From assembly GCA_016195025.1 (NCBI GenBank), contig JACQAL010000048.1, positions 1-57,625 of the forward strand: a stretch of 57,625 nt of DNA. The letters are read 5' to 3'. Positions within the stretch are counted from its first letter, which is position 1. Each line of letters begins with the position of its first letter. Positions 1 through 8,783 of the stretch are shown piece by piece. The DNA is from Bacteroidota bacterium (GTDB lineage Bacteria > Bacteroidota > Bacteroidia > Palsa-948). The notes below the pieces were generated by a model. The model did not search any database. It saw only the letters and a list, made by a program, of their open reading frames with translations, and was not told the DNA's origin. The position numbers were made by a program, and so were the translations under genes.

Positions 1-106
1 AGTTTGGATGTCTTTGGCTACGATCGGTTATCAAACGAATCAAACGCTCTATCAAGTAAAAACAGGATTGTTTAAACAGTTCCTTGTGCAACAACTCAGA
101 ACACCA
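1..106 (-). other. Possible end of an unidentified ORF at the left edge
   Basis: Read on the minus strand, the frame after the stop of the 107-1165 gene stays open to the window edge and encodes a hydrophilic, helical-looking peptide containing LHKELFKQSCFYLIERLIR. It has no clear start (TTG codons only) and is too short to identify. A mobile-element ORF is one possibility, because the neighbouring RCC1 gene ends abruptly here, but nothing in these bases proves it. Confidence 0.2.
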
Positions 107-1165
107 CTAACTCATTTTCACTAATCTTGCGAAAGTCCTACGTATTTTAAAGATTGAATGGAAGTCGTCTCCTGAAATGGCTGTGATGCCACTTAGAGAT
201 GATGCCTGAACAGGAGTGTTTCTTTGAATTGCAGTTCCATCGCCCAATTGTCCATAAGCATTTTGCCCACAACCCCAGACCGTGCTGTCATCTTTAAGGA
301 ATAGGGAAGCATGCCCTGCGCCTTCAACTGCGATTATATTCCCTGCTCCCCAAGTTGAGCTTACCTGAACAGGTATGTATTTACCAGTAGTTGTTCCATC
401 ACCTAATTCTCCAAGTCCATTATATCCGCAAGCCCAAACCATACCATCACTTTTCAGGAAAAGACAATGAAAACCGCCTCTTGCTGAAATAGCAATAATT
501 CCGCTAAGCGATGTTATTTGTACTGGCATAGGATGCGCGTTATTATCCGATGTTCCTAATCCTAATTCTCCCCACATATTGTCTCCACAAATCCATACAG
601 TACTATCACTTTTTAAAAAAATAGAGGCAAACATCCCCGAAATACTAATTATGCCACTTAAGGAAGGTATCTTTACAGGAGTATTTCTTTGAATCGTTGT
701 TCCATCACCTAATTCTCCAAGTTGATTAATACCACAAGCCCATACAGTACTATCACTTTTTAGAAAAAGAGAATAATTTCTCCCTGCGGAAATGGCGATA
801 ATGCCTGTCAGTCCAATTACCTGAACAGGAATATTTTTTGAAATAGTTGTTCCATCACCTAATTGTCCAGATGTATTATCACCACATGCCCAAACAGTAC
901 TGTCATTCTTAAGAAAAAGAGAATGATTAGTCGATGCCGAAACAGCAATAATATTTGTTAATCCACTTACTAAAACAGGAAGAGAAGCATTACCATATGC
1001 ACCATTACCCAATTGCCCTGCATTATTACTTCCACACGACATTGCCTTTCCTTCACTACAAGCAAAAAGAGAATAATATTCCCCTGCTGAAATAGATTGG
1101 GCAGTTGTCTTGTAGACGATACTTAAACTAAGAACTGCTGCCAAGCCGAGTAAAACTTTTTTCAT
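107..1165 (-). CDS. Secreted RCC1-repeat beta-propeller protein lacking a sorting domain
   Basis: 352 aa. Residues 1-23 form a signal peptide (MKKVLLGLAAVL start, cleavage near TAQS). The rest is about six repeats of roughly 50 residues with the RCC1-like pattern LFLKSDSTVWACG..GELGDGT, expected to fold as a propeller. The paralogue at 5480-6868 has the same repeats followed by a T9SS sorting domain. Here the last repeat breaks off after DDFHSIF and ends in an unrelated basic tail (KIRRTFARLVKMS), so the sorting domain is missing and the protein may remain periplasmic or be non-functional. It is the last member of a minus-strand array starting at 6868. Ligand and role are unknown. Confidence 0.8.
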   Translation of the reverse strand: MKKVLLGLAAVLSLSIVYKTTAQSISAGEYYSLFACSEGKAMSCGSNNAGQLGNGAYGNASLPVLVSGLTNIIAVSASTNHSLFLKNDSTVWACGDNTSGQLGDGTTISKNIPVQVIGLTGIIAISAGRNYSLFLKSDSTVWACGINQLGELGDGTTIQRNTPVKIPSLSGIISISGMFASIFLKSDSTVWICGDNMWGELGLGTSDNNAHPMPVQITSLSGIIAISARGGFHCLFLKSDGMVWACGYNGLGELGDGTTTGKYIPVQVSSTWGAGNIIAVEGAGHASLFLKDDSTVWGCGQNAYGQLGDGTAIQRNTPVQASSLSGITAISGDDFHSIFKIRRTFARLVKMS

Positions 1166-1187
1166 TGTCTTTGACTCACCCCTCTTT

Positions 1188-1211
1188 CCCCTCTCTACGC
1201 GTAGAGAGGGG
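1188..1211. repeat. Cassette-junction palindrome, copy 1
   Basis: Perfect 24-bp palindrome with 12-bp arms CCCCTCTCTACG and its complement, inside a roughly 60-bp spacer conserved at four junctions of the 107-6868 array. Looser C-rich and G-rich flanks extend the pairing. As RNA it would form a strong hairpin between genes; no T-tract follows, so RNA processing or stability is as likely as termination. Confidence 0.9.
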
Positions 1212-1225
1212 ATGAAAGGGGAGAG

Positions 1226-1849
1226 TTATTTATCGGTGATTATTAATTTACCTGTTGTAATGACCTCACTTGTCCCTTGTCCCTTGTCCTCTGTTACTTT
1301 ATAAAAATAAATTCCGCATGGTAAACCATCGCGGGTGATTGTGAGATTCCTCGCTCCGCTCGGAATGACACTTTGTGTCACCTCTTGCCCGTAGCAGTTG
1401 TAAACGGTGAGAGTTGCGTTGTGTAATGGAGTATTTGTTTGCAAAGTTGCCTGCGTAGAGAAGGGGTTTGGGGAAATTGAAAATTCTGTTTCCATATTTA
1501 TTTGTAATATCCCAGCGCAAGAGTTAACTGTAACTGTTACAGTTCCCGTAGTAGCTGATGCGCCATTCGACAGATAGCAGCTATAAATAATGGTGGTAGT
1601 GGGGCTTGCAACAGGATTTGATATGTTTGGATTGTTCAAACTTCCGGCAGGGGACCATACATAGGAAAAAGGTCCAGGGTCGTTAGTACAAATTGCAGTG
1701 ATAGTTGTTGACTGTCCGTTACAAATAGTAACATCTGGAGACATAGTAACAGCAAGAGACGGAGACATTATAGCTTGAGGTGACTTTGTTTGCCCCTGCA
1801 CAACTGTCAGCGCGAGAACTGCTGCCGAAACGAGTAAAACTTTTTTCAT
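1226..1849 (-). CDS. Small T9SS type A protein with a PKD/Ig-like domain
   Basis: 207 aa. Signal peptide 1-20 (MKKVLLVSAAVLALTVVQGQ), almost identical to that of the 4736-5413 gene. Residues about 34-108 form one PKD/Ig-like domain (VTICNGQSTT...YVWSPAGSLNNPNISNPVASP), of the type repeated in the large adhesin at 15384-18257. Residues about 120-207 are a type A sorting domain (SPNPFS...NATLTVYNCYGQEV...GIYFYKV). The loop after QEV holds a palindromic element translated as TQSVIPSGARNLTI, and a CTTGTCC heptamer triplet follows at 1269-1289. Probably exported to the cell surface by the T9SS; binding target unknown. Confidence 0.85.
   Translation of the reverse strand: MKKVLLVSAAVLALTVVQGQTKSPQAIMSPSLAVTMSPDVTICNGQSTTITAICTNDPGPFSYVWSPAGSLNNPNISNPVASPTTTIIYSCYLSNGASATTGTVTVTVNSCAGILQINMETEFSISPNPFSTQATLQTNTPLHNATLTVYNCYGQEVTQSVIPSGARNLTITRDGLPCGIYFYKVTEDKGQGTSEVITTGKLIITDK
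1341..1381. repeat. In-frame palindromic element in a T9SS sorting domain, copy 1
   Basis: Reading on the minus strand: a TGACAC-aaa-GTGTCA hairpin followed by ATTCC...GGAAT around a GAGCGGAGCGA core. It is translated as VTQSVIPSGARNLT. The same element lies at the same protein position in the genes at 1910, 3653, 5480, 13020 and 14052. Confidence 0.85.
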
Positions 1850-1871
1850 TGTCTTTGACTCACCCCTCTTT

Positions 1872-1895
1872 CCCCTCTCTACGCGTAGAGAGGGG
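1872..1895. repeat. Cassette-junction palindrome, copy 2
   Basis: Same perfect 24-bp palindrome as 1188-1211, between the stop of the Kelch gene and the start of the PKD gene. The flanking bases towards both genes are also conserved. Confidence 0.9.
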
Positions 1896-1909
1896 ATGAA
1901 AGGGGAGAG

Positions 1910-3592
1910 TTATTTATCAGTGATTATTAATTTGCCTGTTGCAATGGCCTCACTTGCCCCTTGCCCCTTGTCCTCTGTTACTTTATAAAAATAAATTCCG
2001 CTTGGTAAACCATCGCGGGTGATTGTGAGATTCCTCTGACCTACGGTCGCCCCGCTTTGCGGGGTGCTCGGAATGACACTTTGTGTCACCTCCTGCCCGT
2101 AGCAATTGTAAAGCGTGAGAGTTGCGTTGTGTAATGGATTTTCTGATTGCAAAACTGTCTGTGTGGAAAAAGGATTGGGAGAAATAGTAATCGCTCTTTG
2201 CTCGAATAATTGTGAAACATTATTAGGACAACTTACAAAAGCAGAATCAACATATATACATAGATTATTATCAGTTATTGTTAAAGTATACATACCTATT
2301 GCAAGACCAGTGGCAGTTTGAGTTATTTGCGCTGTTGGATTCCATGAATAAGCATAAGGAAATGTACCGCCTGAAATATTTGCTGTTACACTGCCATCGC
2401 TTGAAGTGCATAATGAAGCATTTGTAATTGTCATGCTTGTAGTTAGAGCAGTTGGCTGTACGATGGTTGCTGTTGTGATTGTTGCACAAGAGAGGGAATC
2501 AGTTACGGTTACAGTATAACTTCCTGCACTGAGTCCAGTAATTGATGAAGTCGTTTCTCCAGTACTCCATAAATAAGAATAAGGTGGAATTCCGTTTGAT
2601 GCATTTATAAGAGCACTTCCGTCATTTCCTCCGTTACAATTTATATTTGTTGTAGATAAACTTGCAGAAGAAGGACACCATTCCCAAAAATCCTGTTTGA
2701 AATTAAAACTAAGAGTACTGCCATCATTTCCTGTTCCTATGTATCCTTTGTTACCTATTGAAAAACCAACAGCATAGTGTCTTGCTGTTCCATCAAAGAT
2801 TGTTTTTTGCGTCCATGCATTTGTTACTTGATCCCATTCCCAAAAATCTTTTTTATTAGCTCCATCATATCCTGTTGCGATATATCCTTTTAGACCGATA
2901 GAAAATCCAATGGCTTGGTATCGTGCTGTTCCGGCAAACTGGGCTTTCTGAATCCATGTGTTGCTTGATGGGTCGTATTCCCAAAAATCATTTTTATATA
3001 TTGGAAATTGCTGTCCTGTACCAATGTATCCTTTTGTGCCAATGGAAAAGCCAACGGCATTCTGTCTTGCCGTTCCACTAAAGTTTGCTTTTTGTGTCCA
3101 TACATTCGTTGCCTGATTCCATTCCCAGAAATCTGAGCGCAACGAATCAACATCACGCCCTGTTCCAACATATCCCTTTGTGCCGATTGAAAAACCGATT
3201 GCACTGCCTCGTGCTGTTCCCCCAAAATTTGCTTTTTGTGTCCACACATTTGTTGCCTGATTCCATTCCCAGAAATCCTGCTTATAAGTACCATCTACTC
3301 CTGTTCCTATATATCCTTTAGTGCCTATGGAAAAAGCAACTGCGTATCTTCTTGCCGATACAAAGTTTGCCTTCTGTGTCCACGTATTGTTTGCCTGATC
3401 CCATTCCCAAAATGTCTGCGTGTCGGCATTGTTATTATCATTTCCTGTTCCTACGTACCCTTTTGTACCTATGGAAAATCCAGTAGCATATTGTCTTGCC
3501 GTTCCACCAAAGTTTGCTTTTTGTGTCCACGCACCTTGAACTTTTGCAATTCCACAAAGAGCAATTAATAAGATGAGTAAAACTTTTTTCAT
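1910..3592 (-). CDS. Kelch-type propeller protein with SprB-like repeats and T9SS type A domain
   Basis: 560 aa. Signal peptide 1-20 (MKKVLLILLIALCGIA). Residues about 21-300 hold six or seven Kelch/galactose-oxidase-like repeats with the pattern W(T/I)QKANF.GTAR..A.GFSIG.KGY.GTG...DFWEW. Residues about 310-455 hold two SprB/PKD-like repeats (NCNGGNDGSALI...PPYSYLWSTGETT; then SLCTSSDGSV). The type A sorting domain covers about 465-560. Its variable loop carries an expanded palindromic insert (2025-2089) translated as PSTPQSGATVGQRN. The propeller resembles that of 14052-15263. Likely a surface-displayed binding protein; no catalytic residues recognised. Confidence 0.9.
   Translation of the reverse strand: MKKVLLILLIALCGIAKVQGAWTQKANFGGTARQYATGFSIGTKGYVGTGNDNNNADTQTFWEWDQANNTWTQKANFVSARRYAVAFSIGTKGYIGTGVDGTYKQDFWEWNQATNVWTQKANFGGTARGSAIGFSIGTKGYVGTGRDVDSLRSDFWEWNQATNVWTQKANFSGTARQNAVGFSIGTKGYIGTGQQFPIYKNDFWEYDPSSNTWIQKAQFAGTARYQAIGFSIGLKGYIATGYDGANKKDFWEWDQVTNAWTQKTIFDGTARHYAVGFSIGNKGYIGTGNDGSTLSFNFKQDFWEWCPSSASLSTTNINCNGGNDGSALINASNGIPPYSYLWSTGETTSSITGLSAGSYTVTVTDSLSCATITTATIVQPTALTTSMTITNASLCTSSDGSVTANISGGTFPYAYSWNPTAQITQTATGLAIGMYTLTITDNNLCIYVDSAFVSCPNNVSQLFEQRAITISPNPFSTQTVLQSENPLHNATLTLYNCYGQEVTQSVIPSTPQSGATVGQRNLTITRDGLPSGIYFYKVTEDKGQGASEAIATGKLIITDK
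1953..1973. repeat. Heptanucleotide repeat CTTGCCC in a sorting-domain coding region
   Basis: Three heptamers (CTTGCCC, CTTGCCC, CTTGTCC), coding on the minus strand for the DKGQGA segment. The same triplet recurs in the sorting domains of the genes at 1226 (1269-1289), 3653, 4736 and 5480, and without a gene at 7574-7631. Confidence 0.75.
2025..2089. repeat. In-frame palindromic element, expanded copy
   Basis: The same outer element as 1341-1381, but its core is replaced by a longer insert containing the hairpin CCCCGC-aaa-GCGGGG. The reading frame is kept and eight codons are added. Confidence 0.85.
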
Positions 3593-3614
3593 TGTCTTTG
3601 ACTCACCCCTCTTT

Positions 3615-3638
3615 CCCCTCTCTACGCGTAGAGAGGGG
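3615..3638. repeat. Cassette-junction palindrome, copy 3
   Basis: Same perfect 24-bp palindrome as the other junctions, between the M43-like gene and the Kelch gene. Confidence 0.9.
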
Positions 3639-3652
3639 ATGAAAGGGGAGAG

Positions 3653-4729
3653 TTACTTATCAGTGATTACTAATTTGCCTGTTGCAATGGCCTCACTTGC
3701 CCCTTGCCCCTTGTCCTCTGTTACTTTATAAAAATAAATTCCGCTTGGTAAACCATCGCGGGTGATTGTAAGATTCCTCGCTCCGCTCGGAATGACACTT
3801 TGTGTCACCTCCTGCCCGTAGCAGTTGTAAACCGTGAGAGTTGCGTTGTGTAATGGAGTATTTGTTTGCAAAGTTGTTGAAGTGGAGAAGGGGTTGGGAG
3901 AAACAGAAAAACTTTTTTGACTACCGTAGTTGTTTACTCCGGCAGGAGGATTTCCTCCCTGAGAAGTTTTCAAAGACGCCCTGCAACTATTTATTGCATT
4001 CCACATGACTGCTTTTTGTCCGGCTGTAAAAAAGCATTTCAATGCATCGTCCGCGTAAGTCATGTAATTTGTGCAAAGCGCAACCTGTGTCAGCCCGCTG
4101 CATGTATCCATAGAAGAAGAACATGAACCATCTGATGTATATGTATCGGGTATTCCATCCACATCAATTGCACACGCATTTCCAACCGTATATACTAATC
4201 CGAACCAATGCCCCAATTCGGAACTTGCAGTTTTTCCTAAGTTATAAGGCGGACAAGTTCCGTTCACCGTGCAGTAATGAATAACCAAAGCATCGGTGCT
4301 TGCAGTTGCACAGGGAAACTGCGAATAACCAATCAGCCCGCCTGCAAGATTGCAAACATAAATATTCAAATAACTGTCTCTATCCCAAATATCATCGCCA
4401 CCTGTTGCGGAAGACATTACTTTATTATCGCTTGTAAAGGATACAGCGGTTGTTTGCTTATGAATAATTCCATTCGTAGGGTTTCCATTGGGGTCTTGCT
4501 GCGCAAGCATAAACTGAATATTTGTATTTGCGGCCGGGGTGTATGTATTTGCACAAGTTGTGTCGCTGTAATCATAATTAAGAGTTTGCAACTGCTGAAG
4601 AATTGTGGGGTCAGAAACATTTTGCCCAGCGCTATTGTAAATTACATGAAACACCGTTGGAACAACGAGCGTTTGAGAAAATGATTTGCAAAAAATTGCA
4701 ATCAGAGAGAGAGTAAATATTTTTTTCAT
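3653..4729 (-). CDS. M43 (pappalysin-like) metalloprotease homologue with degenerate zinc site, T9SS type A
   Basis: 358 aa. Signal peptide 1-19. Residues 20-255 follow the M43 family (start LVVPTVFHVIYN; later DVDGIPDT and NYMTYADDALKCFFTAGQ, matching the family Met-turn region). The family zinc motif is HExxHxxGxxH. Here positions 170-180 read SELGHWFGLVY, so the first histidine is Ser170 (codon 4220-4222) and the third is Tyr180 (codon 4190-4192); Glu171, His174 and Gly177 remain. Two of three zinc ligands are lost, so it is probably a pseudoenzyme or binding protein. The sorting domain covers about 275-358 with a palindromic element at 3768-3808. Six bases separate it from the upstream gene, the only array junction without the palindrome. 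Confidence 0.88.
   Translation of the reverse strand: MKKIFTLSLIAIFCKSFSQTLVVPTVFHVIYNSAGQNVSDPTILQQLQTLNYDYSDTTCANTYTPAANTNIQFMLAQQDPNGNPTNGIIHKQTTAVSFTSDNKVMSSATGGDDIWDRDSYLNIYVCNLAGGLIGYSQFPCATASTDALVIHYCTVNGTCPPYNLGKTASSELGHWFGLVYTVGNACAIDVDGIPDTYTSDGSCSSSMDTCSGLTQVALCTNYMTYADDALKCFFTAGQKAVMWNAINSCRASLKTSQGGNPPAGVNNYGSQKSFSVSPNPFSTSTTLQTNTPLHNATLTVYNCYGQEVTQSVIPSGARNLTITRDGLPSGIYFYKVTEDKGQGASEAIATGKLVITDK
3768..3808. repeat. In-frame palindromic element in a T9SS sorting domain, copy 3
   Basis: Same two-hairpin element and same protein position as 1341-1381, one base different in the left arm; translated as VTQSVIPSGARNLT. Confidence 0.85.
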
Positions 4730-4735
4730 TGTTGT

Positions 4736-5413
4736 TTATTTATCAGTGATTATTAATTTGCCTGTTGCAATGACCTCATTTGCCCCTTGCCCCTTGTCCT
4801 CTGTTACTTTATAAAAATAAATTCCGCTTGCAAGATTGCCGCGCTCAATGACGACTGATGACTGATGACTGATGACTACTGACTTTACCTCCTGCCCGTA
4901 GCAGTTGTAAACCGTGAGAGTTGCGTTGTGTAATGGAGTATTTGTTTGCAAAGTTGTTGAAGTGGAGAAGGGGTTGGGGAAAAGAGAAACTGTCTGCTGA
5001 TAATTATTTTCATTAACTCCAATAATAAACCCACAACCGCCATTGTCAATGCTGTCATTATAGGTGGATTCTATATGTGTTGTATCATAAACCGCAGTCA
5101 CATGAATGTAAAACATTCCCCAATTGTAATTCGTGAATCCTATGTATGTTGTGTCTGGATTTCCAATGCAAGGATCATAATAAAAACCTGTCTGCTTAGT
5201 AAAAATATAAAGATTGGTATCTCTGTACACTTTATACCCCACTAAAGTATCTGTTTTTATAGAATCGGGAGGAGACCAAGAAAGACCCCAACAATTCCAT
5301 CCTGGAGGATATTGATACTGACAACTGAATTGTAAATTTTTAATTGGATTAATCTGCCCATGCACAACTGTCAGCGCGAGAACTGCTGCCGAAACGAGTA
5401 AAACTTTTTTCAT
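4736..5413 (-). CDS. Fibronectin III-like T9SS type A protein
   Basis: 225 aa. Signal peptide 1-19, nearly the same DNA as in the 1226-1849 gene (MKKVLLVSAAVLALTVVHGQ). Residues about 21-130 look like one fibronectin type III fold (LSWSPPDSIKTDTLVGYKVYRD...YIHVTAVYDT). The type A sorting domain covers about 145-225. In contrast to its neighbours, the sorting-domain loop has no palindromic element. It is filled by an ACTGATG heptamer repeat (4854-4881), giving KSVVISHQSSVVIERG. The same loop is thus occupied by two unrelated repeat types in adjacent genes. Confidence 0.85.
   Translation of the reverse strand: MKKVLLVSAAVLALTVVHGQINPIKNLQFSCQYQYPPGWNCWGLSWSPPDSIKTDTLVGYKVYRDTNLYIFTKQTGFYYDPCIGNPDTTYIGFTNYNWGMFYIHVTAVYDTTHIESTYNDSIDNGGCGFIIGVNENNYQQTVSLFPNPFSTSTTLQTNTPLHNATLTVYNCYGQEVKSVVISHQSSVVIERGNLASGIYFYKVTEDKGQGANEVIATGKLIITDK
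4854..4881. repeat. Heptanucleotide repeat ACTGATG inside a sorting-domain loop
   Basis: Three exact ACTGATG units and one variant (ACTACTG), translated on the minus strand as part of SVVISHQSSVV. Loss of one unit would shift the frame before the conserved GIYFYKV strand. Confidence 0.85.
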
Positions 5414-5441
5414 TGTGTGTTTTTATGACTCACCCCTCTTT

Positions 5442-5465
5442 CCCCTCTCTACGCGTAGAGAGGGG
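5442..5465. repeat. Cassette-junction palindrome, copy 4
   Basis: Same perfect 24-bp palindrome, between the RCC1 gene and the fibronectin-like gene; the flank towards the downstream start has a few extra bases. Confidence 0.9.
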
Positions 5466-5479
5466 ATGAAAGGGGAGAG

Positions 5480-6868
5480 TTATTTATCAGTGATTATTAA
5501 TTTACCTGTTGCAATGACCTCACTTGCCCCTTGCCCCTTGTCCTCTGTTACTTTATAAAAATAAATTCCGCTTGGTAAACCATCGCGGGTGATTGTCAGA
5601 TTCCTCGCTCCGCTCGGAATGACACTTTGTGTCACCTCCTGCCCGAAAGAATTGTAAATGGTGAGAGTTGCGTTGTGTAAAGGAATATCTGTTTGCAAAG
5701 TTGCCTGTGTGGAAAAGGGATTTGGGTAAATAGAAATACTATTTTCTCCTAAATATTCTTGTGTGGATGAAACGGAGCATGGAATTGTTACCTGCGTTGG
5801 TGAAGGATGAGGGGAATTATTTTGTATGCCGATACCCAATTGTCCATTGTCTGCAAGACCGCAGGCCCAAACTGTTCCATTATTTTTCACAAAAAAAGAT
5901 TGATAGGAAGAACCCCCAGCTGCTATAGAGAGGATATTTGAAAGAGAATTTATTTGTACAGGAATAGATTTATTGACGGTAGTACCATCACCCAATTCTC
6001 CATCTAAATTGTATCCGCAAGCCCAAACTGTTCCATTATTTTTTAGAAAAAGAGAATGTTCGCCCCCTGCTGCTATTGAAATAATGCCTAAGAGAGAAGA
6101 TATTTGAACAGGAGTCAATTTACTTATTGTAGTGCCATCGCCTAATTGTCCGGAACTATTCAGGCCACAAGCCCAAACCGTTCCGTTACTTTTGAGAAAA
6201 AGAGAATGCTCGCCCCCTGCTGCTATTGCAATAATGCCTGAGAGAGAAGGTATCTGTACAGGAGTACTTTTAAAAATTGTTGTTCCATCGCCCAATTGTC
6301 CATAACTATTCAAACCAAATGACCAAACTGTTCCATTGCTTTCAAGAAAAAGAGAGAAGTCATCTCCTGCTGATACAGCTACTATTTTGGGAAGCCCATT
6401 AACTTGAATAGGAATAGTATCGAAAATGGGTCCGCAAGCCCACACCGTACTGTCATTCTTCAAAAAAACAGATTCATTAGCACATATAGATATAGCGGAA
6501 ATTGCTGTAATGTTTACCTGCACGAGTAAACAAGTGGTATCAGTGTTTCCATCGCCTAATTGTCCATTTTGATTTTGCCCGCAAGCCCAGGCAGTTCCAT
6601 CGCTCTTTAAGAAAACAGAATGGTCGTCTCCCGCCCCAACAGAAATAATTCCTGTAAGAGAATTAATAATCAGAGGGCTTGATGTGTTTCCACTACTGCA
6701 CCCGTTGCCTAAATCTCCAGAGAAATTTCCTCCGCACGACCATGCGGTGGAATCTTTACAGACAAAAAGAGAATGATTATGTCCGCCAGCAATGAATTGT
6801 GCATTTGTCTGCCCGTGCGCAACCATCACCGTGAAAACAATTATCAGAGCGAGTAAAACTTTTTTCAT
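5480..6868 (-). CDS. RCC1-repeat propeller protein with T9SS type A sorting domain
   Basis: 462 aa. Signal peptide 1-19 (MKKVLLALIIVFTVMVAHGQ). Residues about 20-350 hold RCC1-like repeats of about 50 aa (HSLFLKS.GTVWACG.N..GQLGDGTT...PVQI.SL.GIISIAAGG). The type A sorting domain covers about 375-462 with a palindromic element at 5595-5635. It is the first gene of the array and sits behind the only good promoter of the region, so the six genes may be one transcript. It is the full-length relative of the truncated 107-1165 gene. RCC1 propellers usually bind proteins; the partner is unknown. Confidence 0.92.
   Translation of the reverse strand: MKKVLLALIIVFTVMVAHGQTNAQFIAGGHNHSLFVCKDSTAWSCGGNFSGDLGNGCSSGNTSSPLIINSLTGIISVGAGDDHSVFLKSDGTAWACGQNQNGQLGDGNTDTTCLLVQVNITAISAISICANESVFLKNDSTVWACGPIFDTIPIQVNGLPKIVAVSAGDDFSLFLESNGTVWSFGLNSYGQLGDGTTIFKSTPVQIPSLSGIIAIAAGGEHSLFLKSNGTVWACGLNSSGQLGDGTTISKLTPVQISSLLGIISIAAGGEHSLFLKNNGTVWACGYNLDGELGDGTTVNKSIPVQINSLSNILSIAAGGSSYQSFFVKNNGTVWACGLADNGQLGIGIQNNSPHPSPTQVTIPCSVSSTQEYLGENSISIYPNPFSTQATLQTDIPLHNATLTIYNSFGQEVTQSVIPSGARNLTITRDGLPSGIYFYKVTEDKGQGASEVIATGKLIITDK
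5595..5635. repeat. In-frame palindromic element in a T9SS sorting domain, copy 4
   Basis: Same two-hairpin element and position as 1341-1381; encodes VTQSVIPSGARNLT. Confidence 0.85.
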
Positions 6869-7168: not shown

Positions 7169-7468
7169 ATGCAGGAAAAATTTTCTCTCAAAAAATACTG
7201 GCTCAAACAACTGAATGCAGCGCTTGATAAAAGAAAACTAACGCCCGAAAAAATAGCTGTACTGCTCAAAGAAAATAAAAGCAACATCAGCAATGCGCTC
7301 ACTGGCAAACGGTATTTTGCACCTGATAAAGCATATGAATGGTGCCTCAAACTTGCCATTCCGCCTCACGAAGTTTTTAATCTGCCCCTTCCGCAGCCCG
7401 TAACTGAAAAGCGCGTGTATGCGGGCGCTGAATTAACAACAACTAATGAAGCATCCATTCTTGATTGA
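7169..7468 (+). CDS. Small helix-turn-helix (XRE-like) protein
   Basis: 99 aa, no signal peptide. Residues about 18-60 fit an XRE/Cro-like HTH: LDKRKLTPEKIAVLLKENKSNISNALTGKRYFAPDKA, with NISNALTGKR as recognition helix and following turn. The remainder is a short tail ending ASILD. Likely DNA-binding; target unknown. The start at 7169 follows an AT-rich leader. It runs into the 21-bp repeat region, with no clear gene until 8094. It is divergent from the surface-protein array and could regulate either side. Confidence 0.7.
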   Translation: MQEKFSLKKYWLKQLNAALDKRKLTPEKIAVLLKENKSNISNALTGKRYFAPDKAYEWCLKLAIPPHEVFNLPLPQPVTEKRVYAGAELTTTNEASILD

Positions 7469-7573
7469 AACAAAAATAATCAGCATGCCCATGAGAGTTG
7501 CCACCGGAGAGATGATTGCCGCCTCAATCAATAGTATACCGAAACAACTCGGCTTTGCGAACGGAGGGATAAG

Positions 7574-7631
7574 GGACAGGGGACAGGGGACGGGTGAATT
7601 TCCCTTGCCGCTTGCCCCATGTCCCTTGTCC
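7574..7631. repeat. Inverted pair of heptanucleotide arrays
   Basis: Three GGACAGG-type heptamers at 7574-7594 face four CTTGCCC/CTTGTCC-type heptamers at 7604-7631, so the two arrays can pair as a long hairpin. The right-hand units are the same family as the heptamers inside the sorting domains at 1269-1289 and 1953-1973. Confidence 0.8.
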
Positions 7632-7685
7632 CATTTTCGGATTCCCGACTACCGATGGTATAAAGACACATTGGTTAAGATTGCG

Positions 7686-7958
7686 GTTGCTTCCATCCTG
7701 ACTAAAGTAACTTCAATTATAATTATGGTTGCTTCAATTAAGACCAAAGTCACTTCCATTGATATTGCGGTTGCTTCCATCTTGACTAAAGTAACTTCAA
7801 TTAAGAGTATGGTTGCTTCAATTAAGACCAAAGTCACTTCCATTGAGATTATGGTTGCTTCCATCTTAACCAAAGTCACTTCAATTAAAATTGCGGTTGC
7901 TTCCGTCAAGAGTATAATTGCTTCTATCTTGACTAATGTTACTTTAATTAAGATTGAA
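7686..7958. repeat. 21-bp tandem array, 13 units
   Basis: Units start at 7686, 7707, 7728 and every 21 bp to 7938, with no insertion or deletion. The core is GT(T/A/C)(G/A)CTTC(C/A)AT, and alternate units are more alike, giving a 42-bp higher-order period. Both strands are open: plus reads as VASI..KVTSI.I. heptads inside 7446-8066, minus as MEATIISMEVTLV heptads inside 7649-7984. I do not call either a gene with confidence: no signal peptide, no conserved domain, and the plus frame runs through the heptamer hairpin at 7574-7631. The rest of 7469-8093 shows no gene. Confidence 0.9.
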
Positions 7959-8005
7959 GACACCTTCTTCCCGATTAAAGACAATTTTCGTTACTGTTCG
8001 GGTAA

Positions 8006-8057
8006 CATAATGCAAACAATGCGAACGTATGCGAATACCGCGAATAAACAACATTCG
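8006..8057. repeat. Dispersed repeat, copy A (partner at 27957-28011)
   Basis: About 52 bp starting CATAATGCAAAC and rich in TGCGAA words. A near copy with a few substitutions and a small length change lies just after the TlpA-like gene at 27957. Both are intergenic. Confidence 0.75.
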
Positions 8058-8060
8058 ATT

Positions 8061-8088
8061 CCTTAATCCTTAATCCTTAATCCTTCAT
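8061..8088. repeat. Heptanucleotide repeat CCTTAAT
   Basis: Three exact CCTTAAT units and a CCTTCAT variant immediately upstream of the 8094 start codon, occupying the ribosome-binding region. Copy-number change would alter leader length or sequence for the 229-aa protein. Confidence 0.85.
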
Positions 8089-8093
8089 TAATC

Positions 8094-8783
8094 ATGGCAA
8101 ACAAAAAAACACCCAAAACCGTAGTAGTGCTTCCGCTGGAAGCAACCACCCACACCAGTGATTTCATTACCGATGCGCAGAACATTCACGATTTGCTGCT
8201 GAACAATGCTAACTTTCCCACCCTTCAGAATGACCTTCCGCAACTGCAGGCGGATATCAACCTGCTCACTGCCGATGAAGGCGATGTGCTCAAGCGCAAA
8301 CCGGGCGCAGCATCAGCCGCCAATGAAAAGAAATTGGAAATTTATAATCAATTAGACGGCATGCGCGCAACTGTTCAAAGGGTGGTGAACCTTCCGGCAA
8401 ACGTTGCCAACGCGGCTGCCATGGTGCAGGGCGCGGGCATGCTGGTGAAAGGCAAAGGAGGGCAAAAAGGAAAAGACAATCTTACCGTTCACAACGGAGA
8501 TATGAGCGGCTCATGCGATTTAATTGCCAAAGCCGCTGCCAAAAAAGCCGCCTACCTCTGGCAGCAAAGCACTGATAACGTAAACTGGGTGTATTGCGAC
8601 CCCATCTGCACGCTTGAAACAAAAAACACGGTGTTCAACCTTGCCGTGAAAACCGATTACTGGTTCCGCTTCCGCGCCATTCTGCCGGCAAAAGCAAGAA
8701 AGGTAAAAACGAGCAAGAAGTTAAAGAAAGAAAAAGCAGCCGATGCCGACTGGAGCCAGAGCGTGAAGATTACCGTGGTGTGA
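8094..8783 (+). CDS. Cytoplasmic-type protein of unknown function with a C-terminal Fn3-like region
   Basis: 229 aa, no signal peptide. Residues 1-110 look helical (SDFITDAQNIHDLLLNNANF...LLTADEGDVLKRKPGA). Residues about 130-229 resemble a fibronectin-like beta domain (AYLWQQSTDNVNWVYCD...TDYWFRFRAILPAK...WSQSVKITVV). The protein is lysine-rich near 195-215. Not recognised as any named family. Its last codons and downstream bases recur at 12126-12190, so another copy of this gene probably once lay there. The stop codon starts an inverted repeat (8783-8883). Confidence 0.75.
   Translation: MANKKTPKTVVVLPLEATTHTSDFITDAQNIHDLLLNNANFPTLQNDLPQLQADINLLTADEGDVLKRKPGAASAANEKKLEIYNQLDGMRATVQRVVNLPANVANAAAMVQGAGMLVKGKGGQKGKDNLTVHNGDMSGSCDLIAKAAAKKAAYLWQQSTDNVNWVYCDPICTLETKNTVFNLAVKTDYWFRFRAILPAKARKVKTSKKLKKEKAADADWSQSVKITVV

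Follow-up and report, generated by a model that had tools for sequence, protein, structure and literature searches.

The window analyzed here is the entire 57,625-nucleotide contig C48 (JACQAL010000048.1) of a 3.5-Mb Bacteroidota bacterium draft genome in 79 contigs, and its positions 107–6868 are filled by six minus-strand open reading frames (ORFs), located as in an initial annotation of this DNA and numbered g1, g2, g3, g4, g5, and g6 in order of transcription (Table 1). We conclude, at a probability of roughly 0.8, that these genes belong to an eight-gene array of type IX secretion cargos, in which one lineage of C-terminal sorting domain (CTD), together with its stop codon, a palindromic spacer, and in places the start of the next signal peptide, was spread locally by recombination over unrelated cargos. 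The locus extends the known modularity of type IX cargos and has an unusual repeat content; it is not a new kind of system.

The sorting domains of g1–g5 match TIGR04183/PF18962 with 34–40 bits against a cut-off of 23, and those of g7 and g8, which lie on a second contig (C3), match PF18962 above its cut-off; genome-wide, there are at least 150 such domains. A search aimed at PorU alone among the type IX components found this sortase in the same genome (1280 bits against a cut-off of 420). The N-termini, as read by eye, consist of MKK, a hydrophobic stretch, and A/G-Q. Because of these families and the presence of PorU, the array products would be exported by Sec and then routed to the cell surface by their CTDs via the type IX machinery.

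The initial annotation described six genes with near-identical starts and near-identical sorting-domain ends around different middles, a description that holds in part. Sorting-domain ends are found in g1–g5, where they share 76–92% nucleotide identity (64–92% among all array genes except g7), whereas g6 has none inside the window. A 300-nt block is present four times in the array, and because exact repeats reach 99 nt, the longest in the array, the similarity of the ends is far beyond chance. At the four junctions that hold a spacer, nucleotide identity is 30% ahead of the CTD, 89–100% over most of the CTD, and 100% in the spacer, and is down to 38% some 30–60 nt inside the next gene; around the spacer it is about 95–100%. 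Of 60 bases of signal-peptide DNA, g5 and g2 (the genes at 1226 and 4736) have 58 in common, whereas other pairs match at 19–45, and the M43 gene g3, with no spacer ahead of it, begins MKKIFT. The middles are mutually unrelated with the exception of g1 and g6 (at 5480 and 107), both of which encode RCC1 repeats. A comparison of ends and middles at synonymous positions, as the annotation had proposed, was made for this pair: fourfold-degenerate sites differ at 52 of 93 positions in the cargo and at 7 of 32 in the CTD (Fisher p = 0.001), supporting the view that the ends are younger than the middles.

In a tree of 39 family-1 CTDs from this genome and its relatives, from which two variable turns (sites 1 and 2) were excluded, seven array CTDs (g1–g6 and g8) form one clade with support of 96/91, with g7 outside it, and the g2 CTD clusters with that of g3 at 99%. 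At the level of sequence, this establishes a single origin of the seven array CTDs, and the lineage is carried by at least six cargo types. The existence of such a clade, as well as the RCC1 cargo common to g1 and g6, is also compatible with plain tandem duplication of one gene, with fast divergence of the cargo through relaxed or positive selection and a sorting domain held in place by constraint. We consider this very improbable, since the CTD also has fewer differences than the cargo at silent fourfold sites, the non-coding spacer is identical from junction to junction, and the cargos come from unrelated families with orthologs of their own elsewhere (M43 in the congeners G005 and G002, Ig in palsa_971, and Fn3 in G004). 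For M43 and Ig, tandem duplication is refuted, as the orthologs bear another CTD.

Specifically, the M43 cargo of g3 is 73% identical to a G005 gene and 49% identical to a G002 gene; the CTDs of these orthologs are of another subfamily and share 29% and 36% identity, respectively, with that of g3. When the locus was compared with congeners, the M43 gene was found in these two at one common locus, different from that in the window, between genes that their translations suggest are phospholipase-like and serine hydrolase-like. The phospholipase-like gene of the present genome (G000, C57:87631-88623), whose counterpart adjoins the M43 gene in the congeners, has no M43 gene alongside; the congener state of the M43 gene is probably ancestral. 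The Ig cargo of g5 is 61% identical to the L115 gene of palsa_971, a Bacteroidota metagenome assembly, with a CTD only 32% identical and a different signal peptide. As judged from these comparisons, CTD replacement is demonstrated for the M43 and Ig cargos. The Fn3 and Ig genes have a signal peptide in common, and g2 is its likely donor, because the G004 ortholog of the Fn3 cargo keeps a recognizable HGQ-NPIK start like that of g2; transfer would then have run from g2 to g5. Since the Ig relative has another CTD and another signal peptide while the g5 start matches g2, g5 is a composite: the cargo has one origin, the tail belongs to the array lineage, and the start was most likely taken from g2.

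The g3 protein deviates from the M43 zinc motif HExxHxxGxxH, reading SELGHWFGLVY, with the first His of HExxH replaced, where its G005 ortholog reads SELGHWFGLFH; g3 still matches PF05572 at 36 bits. Together, g3 and its G005 and G002 orthologs (SELGH, HNLGH) appear to be a non-enzymatic lineage of M43-like proteins that lack catalytic zinc-site residues.

Gene conversion alone, whereby cargos would have been gained with family-1 CTDs of their own and the ends of neighbors homogenized later, accounts for part of these data: the Fn3 ortholog in G004 has a family-1 CTD, yet the g2 CTD groups with that of g3, and the hairpin at site 1 of g2 forms a sharp patch. We regard it as a possible but rather unlikely explanation of the array, as the CTDs of the M43 and Ig relatives belong to a different subfamily, whose DNA bears little resemblance to that of family 1. 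Conversion over long homology therefore could not have replaced the CTDs of these two cargos, each of which requires at least one join at the border between cargo and CTD. In the local-recombination reading that we prefer, the shared block of 3′ end, spacer, and 5′ start supplies 50–100 nt of exact homology at most junctions, and crossovers or gene conversion in such blocks would replace what lies between them, so that homologous recombination or conversion would be the agent of exchange. The annotation's proposal of cassette exchange with export signals kept stands as past history, on the evidence of a CTD clade that crosses six cargo types, M43 and Ig cargos with other CTDs elsewhere, and a copied signal peptide. 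It had also named an outcome that would count against exchange, namely the same order in relatives with ends diverging like middles. As far as the congeners allow, this is not what we observed: none of the 59 related genomes searched has an array-type junction.

That four of the five junctions hold a common spacer and a perfect palindrome had been noted before and is confirmed, except that the palindrome measures 26 bp rather than 24 bp. Outside the array junctions the genome has no further copy of the exact 26-mer, and the predicted spacer RNA hairpin has z-scores of −6.7 to −7.3. None of the four spacers is listed in a terminator scan, and the strong hairpin is not followed by a T run; a role as intrinsic terminator was rejected. 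Similar elements that differ in their loops immediately follow CTD stop codons on C46, C60, C74, C76, and C18, some of them as tandem units of about 88 bp that include a copy of the CTD end, and others are found on C19 and C39 with no CTD ahead. Because the element also occurs away from CTD genes, a special role of the palindrome in exchange is not upheld; the element is a dispersed hairpin repeat, frequently carried along with CTD ends, rather than a site dedicated to recombination. The alternative in which the spacer is a site for site-specific recombination or cassette integration as in an integron, could appeal to the recurrence of a perfect palindrome at most junctions and to the hairpin z of about −7. 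It is barely credible given that the same element has variant loops at other loci, some near genes without a CTD, that it is missing at g2>g3 and so does not accompany every cassette, and that a direct reading of the spacer revealed no GTTRRRY-type core sites. The hairpin spacer could possibly have a role in mRNA stability. Separately, the palindrome and the last CTD codons are repeated in tandem at C46:10300-10554, C76:10386-10569, and C74:15919-16840, as if 3′ ends had been multiplied.

The extension of the array beyond the window follows from its truncated sixth gene. The first ~140 bases of the window recur at six other contig ends, making seven in all, and therefore represent the end of a multicopy insertion sequence. 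This element cuts g6 at about position 141, and the last dozen codons of the annotated ORF derive from it. Contig C3 starts with the other end of the insertion sequence (C3:1-136), with TTGCGAAAGTCCTA at both ends; the flanks on C48 and C3 share ATACG, a 5-bp target duplication, and when joined read HSIFK-YDNSVWACGYNQSGELGDG, an RCC1 repeat that continues in frame. The array would thus comprise eight genes rather than the six described initially, with a C48-C3 join across the insertion sequence that is not assembled. Beyond g8, C3 carries genes that, from their translations, resemble nadB, a NifU-type gene, and pyrG.

A second repeat resides within the CTDs themselves. Module A, located at site 1 in most of the array CTDs (copies in the window are given in Table 1), is found as DNA at the same β-turn in 19 of 153 catalogued CTDs; the 19 are spread over two subfamilies, between which its 45 nt are on average 89% identical and the 45-nt flanks only 36% and 47% identical. 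Our argument uses this flank-versus-core contrast only, as the control was weak (for CTD families that lack module A, hairpins compared between families are on average 32% identical but up to 100%, since the two family patterns overlap). Within family 1, module A was seen in this array alone, and the g2 hairpin has been exchanged with sharp borders. Of 33 near-exact genomic copies of the core, CTDs hold 16, all at this site; another 15 belong to an intergenic miniature inverted-repeat transposable element (MITE) of ~117 bp with AGGACTTACGC ends, and 2 lie elsewhere. The core is present in 0 to 3 copies in each of six congeners, and one G005 CTD codes for the module. In a predicted CTD structure (mean pLDDT 86) that matches the solved CTDs 8glk_D and 8qb1, module A falls on a strand-turn-strand hairpin (residues 45–61), and a KGQG repeat is at the tip of the next hairpin. 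The module may move by conversion via the conserved motifs on either side, or by insertion. Exact matches to the core in 15 viral contigs indicate only that the core motif is widespread.

The MITE, running from AGGACTTACGC to GCGTAAGTCCT, has 15 near-identical copies on C4, C17, C18, C33, C38, C49, C57, C60, C62, C72, C76, C77, and C78 (loci L073-L092), and its ends resemble those of the insertion sequence. Other stretches that look like dispersed repeats are found at CTD turns (VGNGQSAMGN, DPSTSLRV, LPAGQAG, NPDSYRD, and SPSQGEGGG), some of them also in congeners. A broader and rather doubtful reading would make CTD β-turns docking places for short dispersed repeats, ready-made hairpin modules that jump or convert between subfamilies and are sometimes nested in frame. 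Repeats of this kind and the palindromic spacer would predispose CTD ends to recombination, such that the genome would continually re-tail its secreted proteins.

Several points weigh against the local-recombination reading. The species is represented by one isolate, so gain, loss, or reordering of genes is not seen directly; the CTD tree rests on 117 columns and has many weak forks; and the direction of change for M43 is a matter of parsimony over two congeners. Furthermore, this is a draft assembly in which the link between C48 and C3 was deduced across an insertion sequence, and exact repeats as long as those in the array could mislead a short-k assembler. The 79 contigs, some ending in the insertion sequence, and the exact repeats could be taken to mean that the array is an artefact of assembly or binning. 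We find this highly unlikely: every CTD bears substitutions of its own, a short read usually exceeds the length of even the longest exact repeat, open frames are kept across every joint, and G+C is 0.41 in the array against 0.43 in the rest of the contig.

Table 1. Features of the cargo array (window positions, or C3 positions where so prefixed).
Feature	Position	Strand	Remarks
Insertion-sequence end with terminal repeat TTGCGAAAGTCCTA and tail of probable transposase ORF	1..141	+	also contig end
g6: RCC1 cargo, 5′ part only	142..1165 (ORF 107-1165)	-	cut by insertion sequence
Spacer g5>g6	1166..1225	-	perfect 26-bp palindrome 1187-1212; RNA hairpin −36.4 kcal/mol
g5: Ig-like cargo + array-type CTD	1226..1849	-	signal-peptide DNA nearly that of g2
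Module A in g5 CTD	1337..1381	-	45 nt; codes VTQSVIPSGARNLTI (β-hairpin)
Spacer g4>g5	1850..1909	-	palindrome 1871-1896
g4: Kelch + SprB repeats + array-type CTD	1910..3592	-	nested insert at site 1
Module A in g4 CTD	2021..2089	-	split in frame by 24-nt GC-rich inverted-repeat insert (STPQSGATVGQ)
Spacer g3>g4	3593..3652	-	palindrome 3614-3639
g3: M43-like cargo + array-type CTD	3653..4729	-	own signal peptide; no spacer upstream
Module A in g3 CTD	3764..3808	-	
Junction g2>g3	4730..4735	-	6 bases, no spacer
g2: Fn3-like cargo + array-type CTD	4736..5413	-	different site-1 hairpin; likely source of signal peptide common to g5
Alternative site-1 hairpin module in g2 CTD	4841..4887	-	SVVISHQSSVVIER; both sides nearly identical to g3 CTD
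Spacer g1>g2	5414..5479	-	palindrome 5441-5466
g1: RCC1-repeat cargo + array-type type IX CTD	5480..6868	-	first transcribed; CTD in array clade
Module A in g1 CTD	5591..5635	-	
g6, 3′ part with array-type CTD	C3:141-569		
g7: unknown cargo + CTD	C3:877-2688		
g8: glycosyl hydrolase 39-like + CTD	C3:2695-4611		

The labels Ig-like and Fn3-like are those of the initial annotation, and both cargos are without a Pfam match at the threshold used. An Rfam search of the whole window gave no match. ORFs made of short tandem repeats in 42-nt units (patterns VASILTKVTSI and YATLMST) are found at window 7446-8066, adjoining a small helix-turn-helix gene, and at C57:84087-84668. The gene at 8094-8783 belongs to an uncharacterized family with several copies in the genome (81% at C42, 71% at C76) and has no Pfam match; it was dropped as a synteny anchor, being multicopy and without a close copy in congeners.

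The array genes share with type IX cargos bearing a type A CTD (TIGR04183/PF18962) the order of signal peptide, cargo, and C-terminal Ig-like sorting domain with PNP and GIYF motifs, and differ from typical examples in that eight genes stand in a row, seven of them with one CTD lineage, with repeated junctions and repeat-derived modules in CTD turns. Rearrangement of gingipains and HagA in Porphyromonas gingivalis (PMC5266723) likewise re-assorts type IX cargo modules by recombination into mosaic surface proteins, but involves related adhesin modules inside a few proteins, whereas the array joins unrelated whole cargos to a common tail and spacer across a row of genes. In the same species, an association with MITEs is reported for 29% of CTD genes (BrickBuilt and others; PMC4596501); these MITEs are also dispersed inverted repeats beside type IX CTD genes. 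BrickBuilt, however, is another element, described as strictly intergenic, while the array repeat comes immediately after the CTD stop codon, with repeat-like modules found within the CTD coding sequence as well. Rickettsia palindromic elements (reviewed in PMC10969869) are dispersed repeats kept in frame within protein-coding genes, but are ~150 bp long and lie in many unrelated genes, in contrast to the 45 nt of module A, which occupy the same β-hairpin of one domain family with a net change of ~1–3 residues. Module A was accordingly not classed as a Rickettsia-type coding repeat, its in-frame copies being in CTDs at one site and not across unrelated genes. In the open-access papers searched, we found none describing CTD swapping through shared junctions, and nothing direct on CTD domain shuffling, gene conversion, or palindromes in connection with type IX secretion.

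Bacteroidota genomes can hold more than 100 type IX cargos of very different function, and how new cargos gain a sorting tail is not well documented. The present locus catches such a re-tailing step, with the same cargo under two tails in related genomes, a single lineage of tails spread over six cargo types within one genome, and a signal peptide in common with a neighbor. Re-tailing thereby becomes testable with strain collections, and the recurring hairpin module suggests where the sorting domain can accommodate foreign sequence.

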